Shown one piece after another: positions 1 to 8,550 of a DNA stretch of 21,934 nt. The first letter of the stretch is position 1. The number at the start of each line of letters is the position of its first letter. The stretch covers positions 1 to 21,934 of the IMG/VR virus record IMGVR_UViG_3300010313_000007; one strand, written 5' to 3'. The position numbers were made by a program, and so were the translations under genes. Under the pieces are notes generated by a model. It was not told the DNA's origin. It saw only the letters and a list, made by a program, of their open reading frames with translations, and ran no database searches. The DNA comes from a virus.

Positions 1-616
1 AACGAAAGGCGATGAACTTGTCGCGCGGGAAACTGGCAAGCGTGATGGCGTTCGACTGGTTGCCGCCAAGCAGCACGACCTTGGAACCGTCGACACCGGC
101 CACAAAGCCGACATGACCTGAAGAGGCCGACCACTTGATGACGCCGATCGAGCCAACTATTGGCGCACGCGCGCTGATCCCGAAGCCTGCCCATGCCTGA
201 GCCCAGAACGGATTGGACGGAAGTGGCTCGGCGGGCAGCACCTTAGCGATGCAGCTTTCCACCGCATCGCCACACCAGGGCAGCGATGCGGGATCCCCCA
301 AGAATCTGCCGATTCTGAGAAAGTCGATCAGTCGCGACTTATCGCGGACTTCGTGCAATCCCATGCGACGATGCATCTCCGCCATCCACGGCGGCATGGT
401 CTCGGCCGGCGCCGGACGATGATCTTCCCTGCCATCGGTCGGCAGCGACTTCAGCGCCGCTTCCGTGGCCCTGTCCGTCACCCCGGTGACAGAGAGCCCC
501 ATGCGCTTCTGGAAGTCCTTCAGCGCCGCGATCGACACGCGACCCCAGTCGCCATCGGTCGGCACGGCAAAACCGTGCAGCACCAGGCGCGACTGCACCC
601 ACTGTTCGTAAGTCAT
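1..616 (-). CDS. Endolysin: peptidoglycan-binding domain plus TIGR02594-type peptidase, 3' end cut by window
   Basis: Probable cell-wall hydrolase for host lysis. I translated it by hand from the ATG at 616-614; the frame stays open for 205 codons to the window edge and the stop lies outside. An AAGGA Shine-Dalgarno stands about seven bases before the ATG. Residues 1-58 look like a PG_binding_1 domain (LVLHGFAVPTDGDWG, then AALKDFQKRMGL and VTGVTD). Residues about 75-205 match the TIGR02594/CHAP-like amidase or endopeptidase pattern: LPWCGD with likely nucleophile Cys115, GHVGFV with likely catalytic His168, and LLGGNQSN with Asn186. The ending FPRDKFIAFR is typical of the last strand of this family, so only a few residues are probably missing. 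It is divergent from the plus-strand cassette and so is separated from the structural operon. No signal peptide is visible, so a holin outside the window is expected. Catalytic roles are inferred from the family. Confidence 0.85.
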   Translation of the reverse strand, partial: MTYEQWVQSRLVLHGFAVPTDGDWGRVSIAALKDFQKRMGLSVTGVTDRATEAALKSLPTDGREDHRPAPAETMPPWMAEMHRRMGLHEVRDKSRLIDFLRIGRFLGDPASLPWCGDAVESCIAKVLPAEPLPSNPFWAQAWAGFGISARAPIVGSIGVIKWSASSGHVGFVAGVDGSKVVLLGGNQSNAITLASFPRDKFIAFR

Positions 617-741
617 GGTGATTTCCTTGTTTTCCGGTGGAAGGGTTGGCGCCAATTCAGCGTTGCCGGATATTCGGTCTTGAGTAAGCAGGTATCTTGC
701 TGCATTGCTGCACCCGGCGGGCCGGAGACAGCGAGGGATTG
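617..741. promoter_or_regulatory. Divergent intergenic region between lysin and the plus-strand cassette
   Basis: These 125 bases separate two genes transcribed away from each other, so promoters for one or both probably lie here. I find no convincing -35/-10 pair and therefore place no promoter. Visible structure: the lysin Shine-Dalgarno at the left end, an 8-bp tandem direct repeat at 697-712, a short inverted repeat CCGGC-GG-GCCGG at 714-725, and GAGGG at about 732-736, which is the likely ribosome-binding site for the gene starting at 742. Confidence 0.45.
697..712. repeat. 8-bp tandem direct repeat upstream of the cassette
   Basis: TTGCTGCA occurs twice head to tail (697-704 and 705-712), followed two bases later by the palindrome CCGGC-GG-GCCGG. 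It lies 30 bases before the start codon of the plus-strand cassette. It could be an operator or a chance repeat; the sequence alone does not decide. Confidence 0.6.
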
Positions 742-2370
742 ATGAGCATCAAGTCCAAGATCAAGAAAACCATTAAATCCGTTCCTGGCGCTTACCGGCT
801 TGCAAAGGCTGTCGGTTTGGTTCGCGACTATCACGCCGAGTTCCTCGCCGACTGTCGGCGCGTCTATGATCGCTACCTGGCCGAGCATGCGGCCAAGGAA
901 CCGACAGGCTACGTGATCCTGATGGACATCAATCACCGCATCACGACCGGCCTGATGGTGCCCGTTTCACTGGCTCTCTTGAAGCGCGGCTATGCGGTGT
1001 GCTCCGTGATCAAGGGCCGTATGAACGAGAACGTCTGGCCTGAGCTCGATGGGATATCCGGCGCCATTGCCCACGGAGGCTGGGCAGTCGACGGCACTGT
1101 TGCAATCAATCACCTCGTCAAACAATGGACGATCGACTGGGATGCCGGGATCGTCTCCTGCGATGGCGTCAACTACTTCCCGTTTTTCCTCGAACGTCTC
1201 AGCAAGCTTTCAAAGAGTTATCGAGGCAGCCTGACGACAAAGGCGGAGATCAGCCTGTTCAACGCGATGCTACGGCAGAGCGATGCGGTGCTCGCCGTCT
1301 GCGATCGGATCATCAAGCTCGCCGAGAAGGGGCGACCCATTAGGCTCGTTGCAATGGATAGCCATTTCGCCCCATGGGGTGTGATCAGGCGCTGGTGCGA
1401 TGCTGTCGGCAAAGCACATGACATCAACTTTATCGCGCTCTCCAGCGGCTATGAGAACTACTATTCCAACCTTTCGACGATGGAGGCTACCACCCTGGCC
1501 GTCGAAAACCTGACGGCAAATCCAGACCTCCGGCATCCGTTTCTGGGTGGGCAGAAGCGTTTCGAAGAGTTCATCGCGAAACACCCGGAAACGCTGGAAG
1601 GCAAGGCAACCGCGCTGGGATGGATCAAAGTCAACAGGAGTCGCGTCACATCGGACGACCCGGCACGAACTGAGGTGCAGCAAAAGGTGCAAGAGGCACG
1701 CATGGCCGGGCGTCCCGTGTTCGCCGCTTTCGGCAAGGTGCTGATCGACTTCGCCGCGCCAGACGACTGCGGCAATGTCTATCCAGACTTTCCGACCTGG
1801 ATGAACGGGCTGGTGGACCTCGCATCCGAGAGCCAGAGCCTGCTCATCATCAAGCCTCACCCGCACGAGATAAGGCCAGAGATCGTCAACGACGGAGTCC
1901 AGGTTCTCCGCGATCTACTCCCGCACGACCTTCCCGAGAACGTGATCTTTCTCAACCACAACTCTTTCAATTCCTACGAACTGGCAGGGATGGTCGATGC
2001 ATCGTTCGTCTGGAACGGGACGATCTGTTGTGAATTTCCGGTTGTCAACTGCCCTGTCGTGCCCGAAAGCATTTGGGCCGCACGCGATTACCCCCTCGGT
2101 CTTCCCACAATGAGATCTGAGCCGGAGTACCGAGACTTATTCTCAGGCCGCAGCAAAGTGACACTAGACGAAAGCGTGGAAGATCGAGCAGCAGCTTTCC
2201 TGCACTTCCTCAAGTCCGAAGATGTCATGATCCCGTTCCGATATCTCAGGCGCGCCGGGACAAACCAGACGATTGGAAAAAACTGGCTCTATCACAGCGC
2301 GCTCCGTAAACTTGAAAAAGAAGGCGATCCAGCAATAGACCGGGTCGTCTCGCGCTTCTTCATCTCATAG
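742..2370 (+). CDS. Putative capsule-polysaccharide/GT-B glycosyltransferase-like protein (phage moron)
   Basis: 542 residues, no membrane segment seen, probably cytoplasmic. I chose the ATG at 742 (MSIKSKIKK) because GAGGG stands six bases before it; the frame is open to a further upstream ATG at 697 that has no such site. The C-terminal half has the signature of Capsule_synth/GT-B proteins: a strand-turn at 325-333 (PVFAAFGKV), LLIIKPHPHE at 367-376 (KPHP is the classic nucleotide-sugar or phosphate-side motif), then SYELAGMVDASFVWNGT at 411-427 followed by EFPVVNCPVV, which matches the 'ad.vv..nS...E....g.PV' loop of this fold. The N-terminal half (VILMDINHRIT at 58-68) is less recognisable. 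It stands alone with a small partner on the strand opposite to the virion genes, between fibre and lysin, where phages often carry accessory genes. Modification of host surface sugar is inference; the substrate is unknown. Confidence 0.55.
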   Translation: MSIKSKIKKTIKSVPGAYRLAKAVGLVRDYHAEFLADCRRVYDRYLAEHAAKEPTGYVILMDINHRITTGLMVPVSLALLKRGYAVCSVIKGRMNENVWPELDGISGAIAHGGWAVDGTVAINHLVKQWTIDWDAGIVSCDGVNYFPFFLERLSKLSKSYRGSLTTKAEISLFNAMLRQSDAVLAVCDRIIKLAEKGRPIRLVAMDSHFAPWGVIRRWCDAVGKAHDINFIALSSGYENYYSNLSTMEATTLAVENLTANPDLRHPFLGGQKRFEEFIAKHPETLEGKATALGWIKVNRSRVTSDDPARTEVQQKVQEARMAGRPVFAAFGKVLIDFAAPDDCGNVYPDFPTWMNGLVDLASESQSLLIIKPHPHEIRPEIVNDGVQVLRDLLPHDLPENVIFLNHNSFNSYELAGMVDASFVWNGTICCEFPVVNCPVVPESIWAARDYPLGLPTMRSEPEYRDLFSGRSKVTLDESVEDRAAAFLHFLKSEDVMIPFRYLRRAGTNQTIGKNWLYHSALRKLEKEGDPAIDRVVSRFFIS

Positions 2371-2382
2371 AGGAGAGACACG

Positions 2383-2586
2383 ATGTCCACGAATCTGCCA
2401 TCCAACTTCACAGGCGGGCGCAGACCAGAAGATGACGTAACCGATTACGAGTATGAACTCTATACTCGCCTCAGACCTGAGCCGGTCGAAGAAGATCTTC
2501 CAGAACCAACGGCTCTTGAGAGAATAGCTTGGCTCTTCCGCAACTTAGCCGAGCGCTTCAAACAGCTTTTCGAAAAGAAAAGATAG
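2383..2586 (+). CDS. Small hypothetical protein downstream of the glycosyltransferase-like gene
   Basis: 67 residues, not recognised. The ATG at 2383 is preceded by AGGAGAG with good spacing, beginning right after the stop of the previous gene, so the two are very likely co-transcribed (12-base gap). The first 43 residues are acidic and low in hydrophobic residues, with Pro/Glu-rich stretches (RPEPVEEDLPEPT). Residues about 44-67 (LERIAWLFRNLAERFKQLF) form a likely amphipathic helix ending in a basic tail, suitable for membrane-surface or protein-protein contact. The gene ends 10 bases from the convergent fibre gene, and no terminator hairpin is visible between them. A helper of the upstream enzyme is possible but unproven. 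Confidence 0.6.
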   Translation: MSTNLPSNFTGGRRPEDDVTDYEYELYTRLRPEPVEEDLPEPTALERIAWLFRNLAERFKQLFEKKR

Positions 2587-3304: not shown

Positions 3305-5985
3305 TACTTTGCCCTTTCAAGTGCGTTGAGACGATCGGTAACGCGGCGCTCGAATTGCTTCTGACGCGCAATCATGAGCGGCACAAGTTTTGAGTAGTCG
3401 ACACCCCACGGACGGAATTCGCGCTCCCCAGGTTCACCTTCGCCGACCGTAACGGCTGACGGAAACACGGCGTGAAGTTCTTGCGCCACAAGCCCAAAAT
3501 AACGACCGTCAGTCGCCTCTAACGTCGTCCCGCTCAACATGGTGTAAGCCAACGGCTCTACCGCAGCCCACACCGCATCGAGGTCAACTTCATCCTCAAT
3601 GGGCACGCGATCGATCTTCAAGCGCCCGTCGGATGTCGTCTGGAATGTCGTTGACGTGCCGCCCCCGACAATACCGCCGATATAGCCGTTTGAATTGTAG
3701 ACGCCAAAATAAGTGCGGCTGACGGAACCAGCATTGTAGCCGATGTAACCGGCTGCAGCGCTATCAACCCCTGCGACAAAGTTTGCTTCCGCCGGAGGGT
3801 TAGTCGTCGCGGATAGTCCGGCGCGCACCCGCTTGAATATCGCATTCCAGCGGAAAGCTTCCTGCCATTTCGAATCGTCGGTAGACGACGGGACGAAATC
3901 GCCGATCATGGCTAGAATCGATTTATTGCCCCCAGAATTACCAGGCTCGCCGCAGACGAACGTTGCAATCCAGTGGTCACCAACCTTCACAGGTGCCATG
4001 TAACCAGTCGCCCAGTTCGGTACCGGTGTCACGATCTTCCAGTCAACTGCCGGCGAAAGCGCATCCCAGTTGCCGTTTGCCGCCCACAATGCGTCGGCAT
4101 CCGCGGACGCGATCAACATGTGATGATCGAACCCGTCGATGCCGCGACCGCCGCGGCCGAATGCAACGAAATGAAAACTGTTCGTCTCCGGATCTGCGAA
4201 ACAACACGGCGGGTTTCCGCCAAGATTGATGTTGCTCGGGCGAGCGCTACCCCAGCTCAGAAGGTTGGTGGTGACGAAACACGCAGCTTCGTCACGCCAG
4301 CCGCCAGCATCCTGACAGCGCAAATAGAAAATCCACTTGTCTTCGCCAGGAACTCGCCCCCCGGACCACTCCGAGAGCGCAGTGATTGCCGTGCCAGTAG
4401 CGGGGGTATGCGTGAGGTTCGCGACGCCTGTTGCTACCGTGTAGGTTTCCCAATTGTCGGCAGTGCTGATGCGACCATAAGAGCCGGCACCGACAAAGCC
4501 GAAAGCGATGAAACCAAGGGTGTCGTGTCCGCCCTGCGACGCCGGGAACTCGATGATACCGCCGTTGGACGCAAAGGTGTATCCTGTCGGCGTCGTCAAC
4601 GTCTTCGTGCTGAACGTCTCGAATTCGTCATCCGAGTAAATCAGCAGCGGCGAAAAGTGGGCGGTTCCTTCGTCCTGCCGGTTGACCATGAAACCGGATC
4701 GACCGTTCGCAAACAGCCGCGGGGCGTCCGGTCGCGCGTCGTGGGACGCATTTGTGTAGATCAGGCGATCGTTCTCGAGAGTGGCGCCCTGGTCATAGCT
4801 GTCGACAGCGCGAACCTGCGCGCCATCTGTGATCGCATGGCTGCTGGCTTTTCGGTAAATCAGCGTCCACTTCCCCGACGGGAAGACGAGCCAGCCGCTC
4901 GGAAGACCATAGTGGGCGTCGTATCGCTCACCGAGCAGCACACGAATACCGGCATGCCCGAAAGGCAGATCAGTATCCAAAATCCGGGCGTCATTTGATC
5001 CGCCGCCCTCATTGATCAGCGTCATGATCGCAGGGTCGATCTGATCTTCACCGACTGCACCTGCTGCGATTTTCGGCCGCGTCACCGAACCGTCCGGCGG
5101 CACGTCTTCCAGTGCAAAAGCAGGGACGTGATGCACTTCGGCATTGATCGCCACACCATCACCCGGCCACGTCCCGCCGACAGGTGTTATGACGCCGGCC
5201 GTGATCGACCAGGTGCTTTTGAACTGATACACCCCATCGATGAACAGATGGATCTGCTCGGCGATCGCATCTTCATTGCCCGTGTCGATCGACTGCACGC
5301 CCCCACCCACTGCGGCCTCGACTTTGGCGAAAGGTTGGAATGAACCCGTGATCGACAGAATATCGGAAAGCACATCCTCAGCCTGCGCAATGATAGAAGC
5401 CGAGACCTGGTCGCTAACCAGACGGAAGACAGAGCCGCTGACACGCCCCATGACGAGCATGCCGGCCTGAAGTCCGCCAATGGCAATGTCATTGCCGCTG
5501 TTTGACTTGATAGTCAGCAGATCGCCTTCATTGAACGTCACCGTCACCGGAGAGGCGGTGTTCGTGTCTGTGATCGCCATCAGGACCAGGGCCGATCCGG
5601 AAATCGGGATCGAAGATGTCGCTTCTATCGCATTCGGCGTTCCGGATCCGCTGTTCTGCGCCGAAATGAAGCTGTACGGAAGGTCGGCACTCCTCACCCA
5701 TGAGCCGGACCCGGAAGCACCGACCTTGCGGTAGATTGCATTGTCAAAGGCGACTTCATCACCGACGACCCAGGCAAGCGTATTGGCTTCCTTGGAAAGA
5801 TCGGCATCGAGCGCCGCCTTGTTGGCGTAGATGAATCCGCCATTATTGGTGAATGTCGTGATCGACTGCTCGACCCAAGCGCCCCACGCGCGAAGATCGG
5901 GCTTTCGGATTTCGTGCGGCCCGGAGGAAGGCACGCCGTCGGTGACATAATCCCGCGCGACTTCATTCATCAAGGGTGCGGCCAT
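3304..5985 (-). CDS. Tailspike/tail fibre: beta-propeller-like centre and C-terminal peptidase S74 chaperone
   Basis: 893 residues. Residues 1-110 look like a virion-attachment region (MNEVARDYVTDGVPSSGPHE, VVGDEVAFDNAIYRKVGA). Residues about 360-700 hold degenerate Asp-box motifs, strongest at 396 (SYDQGATL), 451 (SDDEFETF) and 508 (TADNWETY), with weaker ones near 572 and 627, spaced 55-64 residues, as expected for sialidase-type propeller blades. The C-terminus is a peptidase S74 intramolecular chaperone: TSDGRLK gives Ser785 and Lys790, the S-x4-K dyad of self-cleaving spikes, then YFGLVAQELHAVFPSAV and WGVDYSKLVPLMI. Cleavage before Ser785 would release about 109 residues after trimer folding. 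GAGG lies 8-9 bases before the ATG. Role: receptor binding and possibly polysaccharide degradation; enzyme activity is inference. Confidence 0.85.
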   Translation of the reverse strand: MAAPLMNEVARDYVTDGVPSSGPHEIRKPDLRAWGAWVEQSITTFTNNGGFIYANKAALDADLSKEANTLAWVVGDEVAFDNAIYRKVGASGSGSWVRSADLPYSFISAQNSGSGTPNAIEATSSIPISGSALVLMAITDTNTASPVTVTFNEGDLLTIKSNSGNDIAIGGLQAGMLVMGRVSGSVFRLVSDQVSASIIAQAEDVLSDILSITGSFQPFAKVEAAVGGGVQSIDTGNEDAIAEQIHLFIDGVYQFKSTWSITAGVITPVGGTWPGDGVAINAEVHHVPAFALEDVPPDGSVTRPKIAAGAVGEDQIDPAIMTLINEGGGSNDARILDTDLPFGHAGIRVLLGERYDAHYGLPSGWLVFPSGKWTLIYRKASSHAITDGAQVRAVDSYDQGATLENDRLIYTNASHDARPDAPRLFANGRSGFMVNRQDEGTAHFSPLLIYSDDEFETFSTKTLTTPTGYTFASNGGIIEFPASQGGHDTLGFIAFGFVGAGSYGRISTADNWETYTVATGVANLTHTPATGTAITALSEWSGGRVPGEDKWIFYLRCQDAGGWRDEAACFVTTNLLSWGSARPSNINLGGNPPCCFADPETNSFHFVAFGRGGRGIDGFDHHMLIASADADALWAANGNWDALSPAVDWKIVTPVPNWATGYMAPVKVGDHWIATFVCGEPGNSGGNKSILAMIGDFVPSSTDDSKWQEAFRWNAIFKRVRAGLSATTNPPAEANFVAGVDSAAAGYIGYNAGSVSRTYFGVYNSNGYIGGIVGGGTSTTFQTTSDGRLKIDRVPIEDEVDLDAVWAAVEPLAYTMLSGTTLEATDGRYFGLVAQELHAVFPSAVTVGEGEPGEREFRPWGVDYSKLVPLMIARQKQFERRVTDRLNALERAK

Positions 5986-6046: not shown

Positions 6047-8146
6047 TCAGGTGACGGTGAATGCGCCTGTCGCCACCGCGGCAGATGCGATGCCGGACGA
6101 ATTCACGCTGGTCAGGAAGCCGTATTTCGTACCTGCAGACAGGCCTGTAACAACGCGGCCGTCTGCGATATTCGGCGGCCCATATTCAGTGGCGACAAGC
6201 GTCGCGCCGGAAAAGCTGTCCACGGTGTTGATGTAGATCCGCACGGCCGCGAAATTTGCCGAGTTCGGCGCCACCCAGGAAAAGCTCCCTTGGCCCGCGC
6301 CGCCAGTGACGCCGGCGCCCGTGACGACGCCAGGCGCGACCGGATCGGCAACAGCCGTGACCAGCTGGTAGTCGGTCCACTCAGAAGGCGTCCCACCTCC
6401 CCAGGCGCGCAGCCGGACGCGATACTGCTGGCCATCGACCAGGTAACCGGAGCGAACGAAATTCTCCCCATCTCCAGCAAATACGGACTGAACACCGGTC
6501 GAGCCGCTGGTGCGCTCATACTCCATCTCATAGCGGAGGCTGCTGTCGCCGGCGGTCCACTGACCACGCAGATAGGCCGCAGTTGAGCTGCCTGTGATGA
6601 CCTCGTTGAGAACGGTCACCGTGAAGCCAACTGGCACCGGAACACCTTCGGATTCGATCGGCGGCGGCGATGCGCCAGGGACACCTTCTTCCGTCGCAGC
6701 GTCGAAAGAATACAGACTGTCCGTCACCAGAATGCCGCTAAAACTCACCCGCATGTTGCGCAGATCAAGCGAAACCGTGGATGTGATCTCAACGATTGCC
6801 TCGACGAGCCCGCGACTCGGATAGTGCACCCGGACGAACCGACGATAGGCGCAGTTCTTGGCGGCGCTATAATCCGCCGTGATCGTGATCCGTCTGGCAT
6901 TCGCACGGATGTAAGTCAGTTTCTGCTTGCGCTGGCAGTGGTTGTGAGACTGCACGGCGGCGTTATCAAAGGTCTTGGTGCGCTCAGTCTCGTCGATCTC
7001 GCCATAGGGGTCGCCGTAGAGAGAGGCGTCCTCCGTGTTGTAGTCCTTTGCGGGGTTCTGATAGCGGCCGCGCACCGCGAGCACGGTAGAGGACAGCCTC
7101 TTGTTCTTGTCGACTTCGATCGCAAAGATGCTCTCCTGCGTAAGGCGAACATCGGGAGCAACGAACTCGCCGGCATGCACGCCGATCTTCCCGTCGTTGC
7201 GCTCATAGACGACCAGCTCAGCCGCCTCGTCGAGGGTGCGACCGACCTCGACCGGATCATTGTTCGTCCGAAACCACAATCCGCCCCAATAGCGCCGCTC
7301 GGTGCCGCCGCTGCGGTTGGTGACGATCTCGTCACAGACATTGGCGGCATGCATCCAGTCCGGCATGAACATGCGCTGATAACCGAGCTTGCCGCCGAAC
7401 GGCTGTGCCAGATGGTCCAGCCGCATCAAAGCGATGTTGCTGGAAAACTCCCAGGTATTCGGGTCAGCATGTCGGTGCGAACCGGACCCACCGGGCTGGG
7501 TTGAATCCTTGCGCGGGTCATAAAGCAGCACGCCGTCACCGATGGCGGAATGCTCCGGCATCTGGTTAGGAAAGATGCGGAGATAATACTTGTCCTCGGG
7601 CGTCTTGGCGCGCATACGGACCGAAGCGAGACCATCGCCACGATGGTTGTTCGTCCATGCCGCCGGAAAGGCTGCAACCACGTCAGCATAAGCTGTCTCG
7701 GCATCGAGGCCGACCCTGCTCAGGATGTTGACGTAGGGATTGCCGCTGCGCACATAGGCGTTGGTGACATTGCCCGAGCCATCAAGGTTCAGCGCCTTGT
7801 CATGCCCGTAGTGTCGCACGAACCCTTGTATACGCCGGCCGCACCAGACGATGATGTGGTAGGCGATCCCATTCGTCTCCTCGAGGAAGACGTAGTCTCC
7901 GCCCTTCTTGACCCGACCGTAGACGATCGGCAGAGGTGGCACATTCTGCTTGAGGTTATAAGAGCCGTCCTCGGGCCTCGGCACTGAGGGCTTTTGCACG
8001 AACAGCGACTGCAGAAGACCAGCGCCGTATGCCAGGCCACCGTATAGCGCCGCCATCGTCCCGAGATAGATCAGGTTCGACGCGATGACGCTGGTGGTGC
8101 CGATCGAAGCGACGATCGTCAGGACGAGAGATTCCAGAATGCCCAC
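6047..8146 (-). CDS. Tail tip attachment protein, J-like, with C-terminal FN3-like domains
   Basis: 699 residues; the central tail-tip or host-specificity protein. The start is GTG at 8146, sharing one base with the TAG of the previous gene (TAGTG). Residues 5-48 are strongly hydrophobic and Gly/Ala-rich (LVLTIVASIGTTSVI and on), a feature of many J-type N-termini. Residues about 68-110 (PPLPIVYGRVKKGGDYVF, HIIVWCGRRIQGFV) begin the tail-hub core. Residues 230-480 continue the hub with WGGLWFRTNNDPVEVGRTL and VRGRYQNPAKDYN. From about 505 to 699 there are two FN3-like sandwiches (RYEMEYERTSG, YRVRLRAWGGGTPSEWTDY; then AAVRIYINT and GLSAGTKYGFLTSVN). Position after the DUF6950 gene and before the fibres supports the call. 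It is much shorter than lambda J, so it is probably a compact version. Confidence 0.8.
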   Translation of the reverse strand: MGILESLVLTIVASIGTTSVIASNLIYLGTMAALYGGLAYGAGLLQSLFVQKPSVPRPEDGSYNLKQNVPPLPIVYGRVKKGGDYVFLEETNGIAYHIIVWCGRRIQGFVRHYGHDKALNLDGSGNVTNAYVRSGNPYVNILSRVGLDAETAYADVVAAFPAAWTNNHRGDGLASVRMRAKTPEDKYYLRIFPNQMPEHSAIGDGVLLYDPRKDSTQPGGSGSHRHADPNTWEFSSNIALMRLDHLAQPFGGKLGYQRMFMPDWMHAANVCDEIVTNRSGGTERRYWGGLWFRTNNDPVEVGRTLDEAAELVVYERNDGKIGVHAGEFVAPDVRLTQESIFAIEVDKNKRLSSTVLAVRGRYQNPAKDYNTEDASLYGDPYGEIDETERTKTFDNAAVQSHNHCQRKQKLTYIRANARRITITADYSAAKNCAYRRFVRVHYPSRGLVEAIVEITSTVSLDLRNMRVSFSGILVTDSLYSFDAATEEGVPGASPPPIESEGVPVPVGFTVTVLNEVITGSSTAAYLRGQWTAGDSSLRYEMEYERTSGSTGVQSVFAGDGENFVRSGYLVDGQQYRVRLRAWGGGTPSEWTDYQLVTAVADPVAPGVVTGAGVTGGAGQGSFSWVAPNSANFAAVRIYINTVDSFSGATLVATEYGPPNIADGRVVTGLSAGTKYGFLTSVNSSGIASAAVATGAFTVT

Positions 8147-8550
8147 TAAAGTCTCCAGATCGCCAGCGGCCTGGCAGTGATGCGCTTGAACCCGTCAGGC
8201 GCCCGCGTGAGCCACCCTTCGCCGTCGTGGATGACACCGAACTGCCGGGTGATGTTGCGGACGCTTCCGACCACACCGAAATCGCCGCACCGGGGATCGT
8301 CGACGCGCCAGGCACCGATCGACAGGGCAGCCTGCTCGATCAGCGGAACGGCGCCCCCATGCGCGGCCAACATGTCGATCTGCCCCTGCCCCGCCTCATA
8401 CGACCCGCGAAATCCTTCCACGGGATCACGGAAGCCCAGCCACTTGGCCCACTCCGCAATGATGAGGCAGCAGTCGACCTTGTTGCCCGGAGTCCACGGC
8501 GCACGCTCGTAGGCTTCGATGAAGTCGCGGAGGATTACCAACTCGGCCAT
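8146..8550 (-). CDS. DUF6950-like tail-tip assembly protein (NlpC/P60-like)
   Basis: 134 residues, matching the small DUF6950 family found between hub proteins and J in many siphophages. Visible family features: VDCCLIIAEWAKWLGF (residues 25-40) with Cys27 in the place of an NlpC/P60 nucleophile, DPVEGFRGSYEAG (42-54), GGAVPLIEQ (65-73), CGDFGVV (88-94), FGVIHDGEGWL (104-114) with His108 as a possible partner, and the terminal aromatic ARPLAIWRL. The family occupies the position of lambda gpK and of the GTA cell-wall peptidase, so cutting peptidoglycan or a tip-assembly role are both possible. Its start lies inside the end of the previous gene (16-base overlap) and its stop overlaps the J-like start. 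Confidence 0.7.
   Translation of the reverse strand: MAELVILRDFIEAYERAPWTPGNKVDCCLIIAEWAKWLGFRDPVEGFRGSYEAGQGQIDMLAAHGGAVPLIEQAALSIGAWRVDDPRCGDFGVVGSVRNITRQFGVIHDGEGWLTRAPDGFKRITARPLAIWRL

Follow-up and report, generated by a model that had tools for sequence, protein, structure and literature searches.

A pair of plus-strand open reading frames, P0001 and P0002, lies between the tail-fibre and lysin genes of a virus record from IMG/VR (IMGVR_UViG_3300010313_000007, positions 1 to 21,934; the whole 21,934-nt stretch is called the window here), in which the minus strand otherwise carries tail and lysis genes of a siphophage-type genome. What the pair is, and what it could do for the phage, is the question addressed here. 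An initial annotation had read it as a sugar-polymer cassette that changes the host surface. We give a probability of roughly 60% to the reading that the cassette is a lysogenic-conversion moron, in which P0001 would act as a pseudaminyl-type transferase altering a surface polymer of the host.

The cassette and its surroundings

Both open reading frames of the initial annotation were found on the plus strand (742 to 2586), and the neighbors were confirmed as a CHAP lysin, from which the cassette diverges, and tail-fibre proteins, on which it converges (Table 1). P0001 is a real gene, since relatives at 41 to 53% identity span nearly its whole length; its 542 codons also exceed the longest open run in 500 shuffles (259 codons). 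P0002 starts 12 bases past the P0001 stop, behind AGAGGAGAG, and is likely rather than proven to be coding, because its sole match in the search was the same phage in another contig. The role of partner to P0001 that had been proposed for it was dropped, adjacency being all that joins the two. A second IMG/VR contig is identical across 10,777 bases spanning the P0001/P0002/fibre junction, which rules out misassembly of a single record as the origin of this junction. Promoter and terminator scanning gave no sigma-70-like match above chance, including in the gap at 617 to 741; the cassette is on the opposite strand and has this divergent gap ahead of it.

Table 1. Features of the window around the cassette, with predicted functional residues of P0001
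Feature	Position	Strand	Description
P0003	2-655 (lysin, 2..616)	-	Lysin, PG_binding_1 and CHAP domains, runs off contig end; one slot border
Intergenic gap	617..741	.	125 bp separating the starts of the divergent lysin and P0001 genes; presumed promoter region
P0001	742..2370	+	542 aa, KpsC/WbbB-fold glycosyltransferase-like, predicted CMP-pseudaminate-type transferase
Y237-E238	1450..1455	+	Tyr-Glu pair, putative general base as judged from KrkA/KpsS1
G331-K332-V-L-I-D336	1732..1749	+	KxxxD where the nucleophile motif QxxxD would stand; candidate nucleophile D336
K371-P-H-P-H-E376	1852..1869	+	(K/R)xHP CMP-binding motif
W424-N-G-T427	2011..2022	+	Conserved WNGT, at the presumed position of the Ser pair that binds the CMP phosphate
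P0002	2383..2586	+	67-aa open reading frame, strong ribosome-binding site
P0004	2597..3304	-	Second tail-fibre protein, gp53-like C-terminal (weak); other slot border
P0005	3304..5985	-	Tail fibre, C-terminal S74 chaperone
P0006	6047..8146	-	J-type tail protein

By sequence comparison, the phage of the window is related to Rhizobium phage 16-3: the N terminus of P0005 is 66% identical to 16-3 p023, and the J-type tail protein has 63 relatives, among them one in a 60,195-bp record (L100) at 65% identity. Relatives whose J protein is 79 to 80% identical were located in contigs of bacteria or genomes of isolates, which makes this a lineage of temperate phages; integration genes were not found within the 21.9-kb window.

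The fibre itself had been called a putative depolymerase spike, and a joint scheme of cleaving on entry and remodeling after infection had been built on it. The spike was not borne out: domain and sequence searches of P0005 returned the S74 chaperone and no glycanase domain, and the middle part of the protein (window 3676 to 4998, ~440 aa) was matched only in the same phage and not at all in the PDB. The joint scheme is unproven for this reason, as far as sequence searches of the fibre go.

Predicted fold and active-site motifs of P0001

P0001 had no match in Pfam (none at E<1), PHROGs, NCBIfam, or PDB sequences, did not exceed the gathering score of the PF05159 Capsule_synth profile, and had no relatives among 50,697 named phage records; PDB sequence and profile searches gave chance matches or none. 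Its relatives were collected from viral contigs, genomes, and plasmids. An AlphaFold model (me1605c1dbafd) made from an alignment of seven phage versions reached a pLDDT of 80.4 and a pTM of 0.83 (single-sequence prediction, pLDDT of only 38). The structure-based search that the initial annotation had proposed was run with this model, and its top PDB matches were KpsC beta-Kdo transferases (probability 1.00, E 4e-7), a fold linked to glycan metabolism; WbbB with CMP-Kdo was likewise matched. TM-scores were low (~0.3 by query length, 0.46 by target) and the rmsd was large. The model is nonetheless predicted to have the modified GT-B fold of KpsC/WbbB-type CMP-ulosonate transferases.

Profile comparison aligned GKxxxD, KPHPHE, and WNGT of P0001 to the motif regions of PF05159 (probability 78%, E 2e-5). 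QxxxD is known from the literature as the nucleophile motif and (K/R)xHP as the CMP motif, and a Tyr-Glu pair is the base in KrkA and in the pseudaminyltransferase KpsS1 (PMC12887879). Across 13 aligned sequences, K371-P-H-P and D336 are invariant; Y237-E238 is invariant in the closer relatives. QxxxD itself is absent from P0001, where the Asp is kept and the Gln is replaced by Lys (K332), giving KxxxD, and P0001 was therefore not placed within GT99, GT107, or GT140. Fold comparison, motifs, and relatives in capsule loci agree with the earlier label of a GT-B/capsule-synthesis-like protein, though no family library recognizes P0001, and the prediction that it is a glycan-polymer enzyme of KpsC/WbbB fold is supported.

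Pseudaminic-acid genes in hosts and host loci

Host relatives are mostly the C-terminal parts of 900- to 1500-aa proteins, some of them fused to PF05159 and TPR; the Sinorhizobium domain has both fusions and adjoins pse genes and kps exporters. Among the 17 host loci with enough flank to be informative, 15 have pseB, pseC, or pseI within 10 kb (pseB and pseC only in L025 and L127), and L126 and L122 have none. Two loci of 3 to 8 kb (L016, L131) were set aside, and the query-gene source (L007) and a locus with weak matches only (L129) were omitted from the 17. None of nine phage loci has pseB, pseC, or pseI near the P0001 relative. The cassette's pair was not found as ordinary chromosomal genes, an arrangement that the initial annotation had regarded as adverse to it; relatives of P0001 are chromosomal in some hosts, and their siting in pseudaminic-acid and capsule loci favors the glycan reading.

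All four sequenced genomes with a prophage copy of the family (G001, G103, G167, G646) carry PseI (62 to 100% identity, the 100% being G646, itself the query source) and PseB. Among 200 sampled genomes of the hosts' family, 17 have PseI at E<1e-80, and three of these are the lysogens themselves; pseudaminic-acid genes thus occur in 4/4 bacteria with prophage copies versus 7 to 9% of their family. By our own calculation, the chance of such agreement for the three sampled lysogens is ~5e-4. This co-occurrence is not mere linkage, since the pse locus and the prophage gene are on different contigs in three of the four (G103, G167, G646). The link to host surface sugars drawn in the initial annotation is thereby strengthened, as the family shares loci with pseudaminic-acid genes and occurs in hosts carrying such genes.

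One prophage, in Aliihoeflea (L033, G001:C5), directly adjoins an ABC-type exporter and pse genes of its host (pseB at 21.4 kb, pseI at 25.8 kb, family gene at 39.6 kb), which makes this copy less clearly phage-borne. A family of 340- to 400-aa proteins was seen near P0001-family genes in two phage cassettes (L026:7599-8645, L037:2199-3401) and in a host pseudaminic-acid locus (L128:8022-9050). It has no NCBIfam match, its L026 copy has no Pfam match, and it is probably a functional partner of the P0001 family.

The tie to pseudaminic acid could also be one of association only, with P0001 transferring another sugar in capsule assembly, such as Kdo, glucuronic acid, or a non-ulosonate. KxxxD departs from QxxxD, the Sinorhizobium K-antigen contains glucuronic as well as pseudaminic acid, and the 1360-aa host protein has two glycosyltransferase modules, either of which may be the pseudaminyl one. 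We consider this somewhat unlikely, given that sialyl- and Kdo-transferases have KxHP as their CMP motif and that the association with pse genes also holds for TPR-glycosyltransferase proteins that have no PF05159 module.

The fibre-lysin slot and the proposed role of the cassette

Genes of the P0001 family stand beside tail or fibre genes in seven other phage loci (L026/L034, L027, L033, L035, L037, L038, L039; the neighborhood in L037 is less clearly annotated), mostly on the strand opposite to the tail genes; L038 and L039 have the gene in the same direction. In the tree, phage copies fall in at least three places, i.e., at least three acquisitions, one of them within the Sinorhizobium K-antigen clade. 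Two of the prophages have a 713- to 715-aa TPR-type protein directly beside the P0001 relative (L027:11041-13188, L033:7127-9268), and a putative sugar O-methyltransferase (TIGR04371) is present in L027 as well.

The place between fibre and lysin holds other glycan enzymes in at least 14 of the 45 J relatives with enough sequence past the fibre, the slot counts being lower bounds because occupants were picked by size ahead of Pfam scans. Two matches to the L054 occupant (L067, L093) span only 65 to 71 residues and were left out of this count. The enzymes comprise GT2, GT4, GT8, GT92, GT61/RgpF, GT29, Capsule_synth, and WcbI types, acyltransferase-3 proteins, a sialate esterase, a sugar epimerase, and methyltransferases. 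The closest relatives carry acyltransferases where the window has its cassette: L042 (J 80% identical) has an Acyl_transf_3 protein, and L125 (J 79% identical) has, at 6348 to 8433, two adjacent paralogous genes (329 and 342 aa) that are acyltransferase-like by resemblance only. The cassette is thus an extra gene set missing from close relatives at the same site, and this comparison of phages with and without it agrees with the moron-like insertion described in the initial annotation. Phage phiLM21 has an opposite-strand FkbM methyltransferase in the slot, and phage 16-3 has at the equivalent place immXu/immXl, described as its immunity region. One occupant (L070:14616-16568) combines a GT4 part with a GT29 (sialyltransferase) domain, which is unusual for a bacterial virus. 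AAA_21/OLD-like ATPases, possible anti-phage genes, occupy the slot of two further phages (L048:14782-16539, L068:14678-16546), so it is not restricted to glycan genes.

P0001 and P0002 could also be passenger host genes acquired through recombination and of no use to the phage. Recent capture is evident in L038 and L039, whose copies share 82 to 90% identity with one another and with a protein of a Sinorhizobium K-antigen locus, and P0002 is an orphan. This is highly improbable, because the family was captured independently at least three times into sites of one kind, the frames are intact, and the slot is enriched for functionally similar genes.

The main rival reading gives P0001 a protein acceptor, with the tail fibre of the phage itself as the likeliest target and host flagellin as the other one, in the manner of TPR-containing cytoplasmic O-glycosyltransferases. 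Phage copies adjoin fibre genes, the co-directional gene in L038 and L039 would suit late expression with them, many relatives have TPR domains or TPR neighbors that could point to a protein acceptor, and Caulobacter FlmG is a precedent for TPR plus glycosyltransferase with pseudaminic acid. FlmG was set apart as a homologue of P0001 by length rather than alignment (glycosyltransferase part of ~283 aa versus ~490) and serves as an analogy only. We judge protein glycosylation unlikely: in hosts, the relatives are encoded in capsule loci alongside kps-type exporters or are fused to Capsule_synth, the slot is otherwise filled by typical polysaccharide enzymes, the acyltransferase-3 proteins among them, and the family gene opposes the late genes in most phages. 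Moreover, a Pfam-type domain scan of P0001 itself gave no recognized TPR part.

Lysogenic conversion with a pseudaminyl-type transferase is accordingly the reading we prefer. It draws on the fold match, the CMP motif, the alignment of D336 to the known nucleophile position, the association with pseudaminic-acid loci and hosts, the recurrence beside fibre genes, and the other glycan enzymes in sister phages. The Lys in place of the conserved Gln, the low TM-scores and large rmsd, the co-directional copies, and the TPR regions and neighbors count against it. The cassette would be a moron of a 16-3-like temperate phage, presumably expressed from the prophage. P0001, in the cytoplasm, would probably take host-made CMP-pseudaminic acid or a close nonulosonate and add the sugar to, or divert, a capsule/K-antigen or LPS polymer of the host. 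The benefit would most likely be an altered surface receptor that blocks related phages from the lysogen, or progeny kept off debris. Phage 16-3 adsorption reportedly involves host RkpM, which belongs to the K-antigen genes, making a receptor change a sensible benefit; superinfection exclusion by the cassette is plausible by analogy, because the equivalent slot of phage 16-3 holds immX.

A further, tentative proposal is that P0001 founds an undescribed KxxxD pseudaminyltransferase family that may shuttle between host K-antigen loci and a fibre-adjacent slot that 16-3-like phages would reserve for receptor remodeling, converting a pseudaminic-acid capsule, the receptor type used by the tail, to exclude rival phages. 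A protein family recognized by no library is in this way given an activity, a donor sugar, and active-site residues that can be tested, and a swappable slot is exposed in which 16-3-like phages keep surface-rewriting genes beside surface-reading genes. K-antigen genes affect adsorption in the classical genetic system formed by phage 16-3 and its Sinorhizobium host, so the idea that temperate phages match a receptor-altering enzyme to their type of fibre is open to direct testing.

Among known systems, the retaining beta-Kdo transferases KpsC (GT107), WbbB (GT99), and KrkA (GT140) share with P0001 the KxHP CMP motif and the Asp at the nucleophile place; KpsC and WbbB are alike in predicted fold, and KrkA has the same YE pair. 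P0001 differs from them in having no significant sequence-family match, in KxxxD rather than QxxxD, in its larger size, and in the association of its family with pseudaminic acid, not Kdo genes. The Sinorhizobium rkp-3 K-antigen genes represent host loci where pse genes and kps-type exporters accompany a P0001-family domain, there within a host-encoded multidomain protein of ~1360 aa (possibly RkpY), unlike the 542-aa P0001. The immX region of phage 16-3 fills the corresponding position directly after the tail fibre, has a gene on the opposite strand, and belongs to a phage of the same family, but its genes are small and annotated as acetyltransferase and repressor-type immunity, with no detected similarity to P0001. 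KpsS1 (GT118) of Acinetobacter, compared here by its YE pair from the literature alone, is a KpsC-like pseudaminic-acid transferase (PMC12887879), which sits in a bacterial capsule pathway, whereas P0001 is in a phage. Prophage-driven capsule conversion is known in Acinetobacter (PMC13228068), where the prophage O-acetyltransferases Atr29 and Atr30 act on pseudaminic or legionaminic acid of the host capsule (PMC6586298). Atr29 and Atr30 acetylate an existing sugar, whereas P0001 is a predicted sugar transferase, and these prophages are a precedent for the general kind of system proposed here, a phage gene that alters a nonulosonate-containing host capsule.
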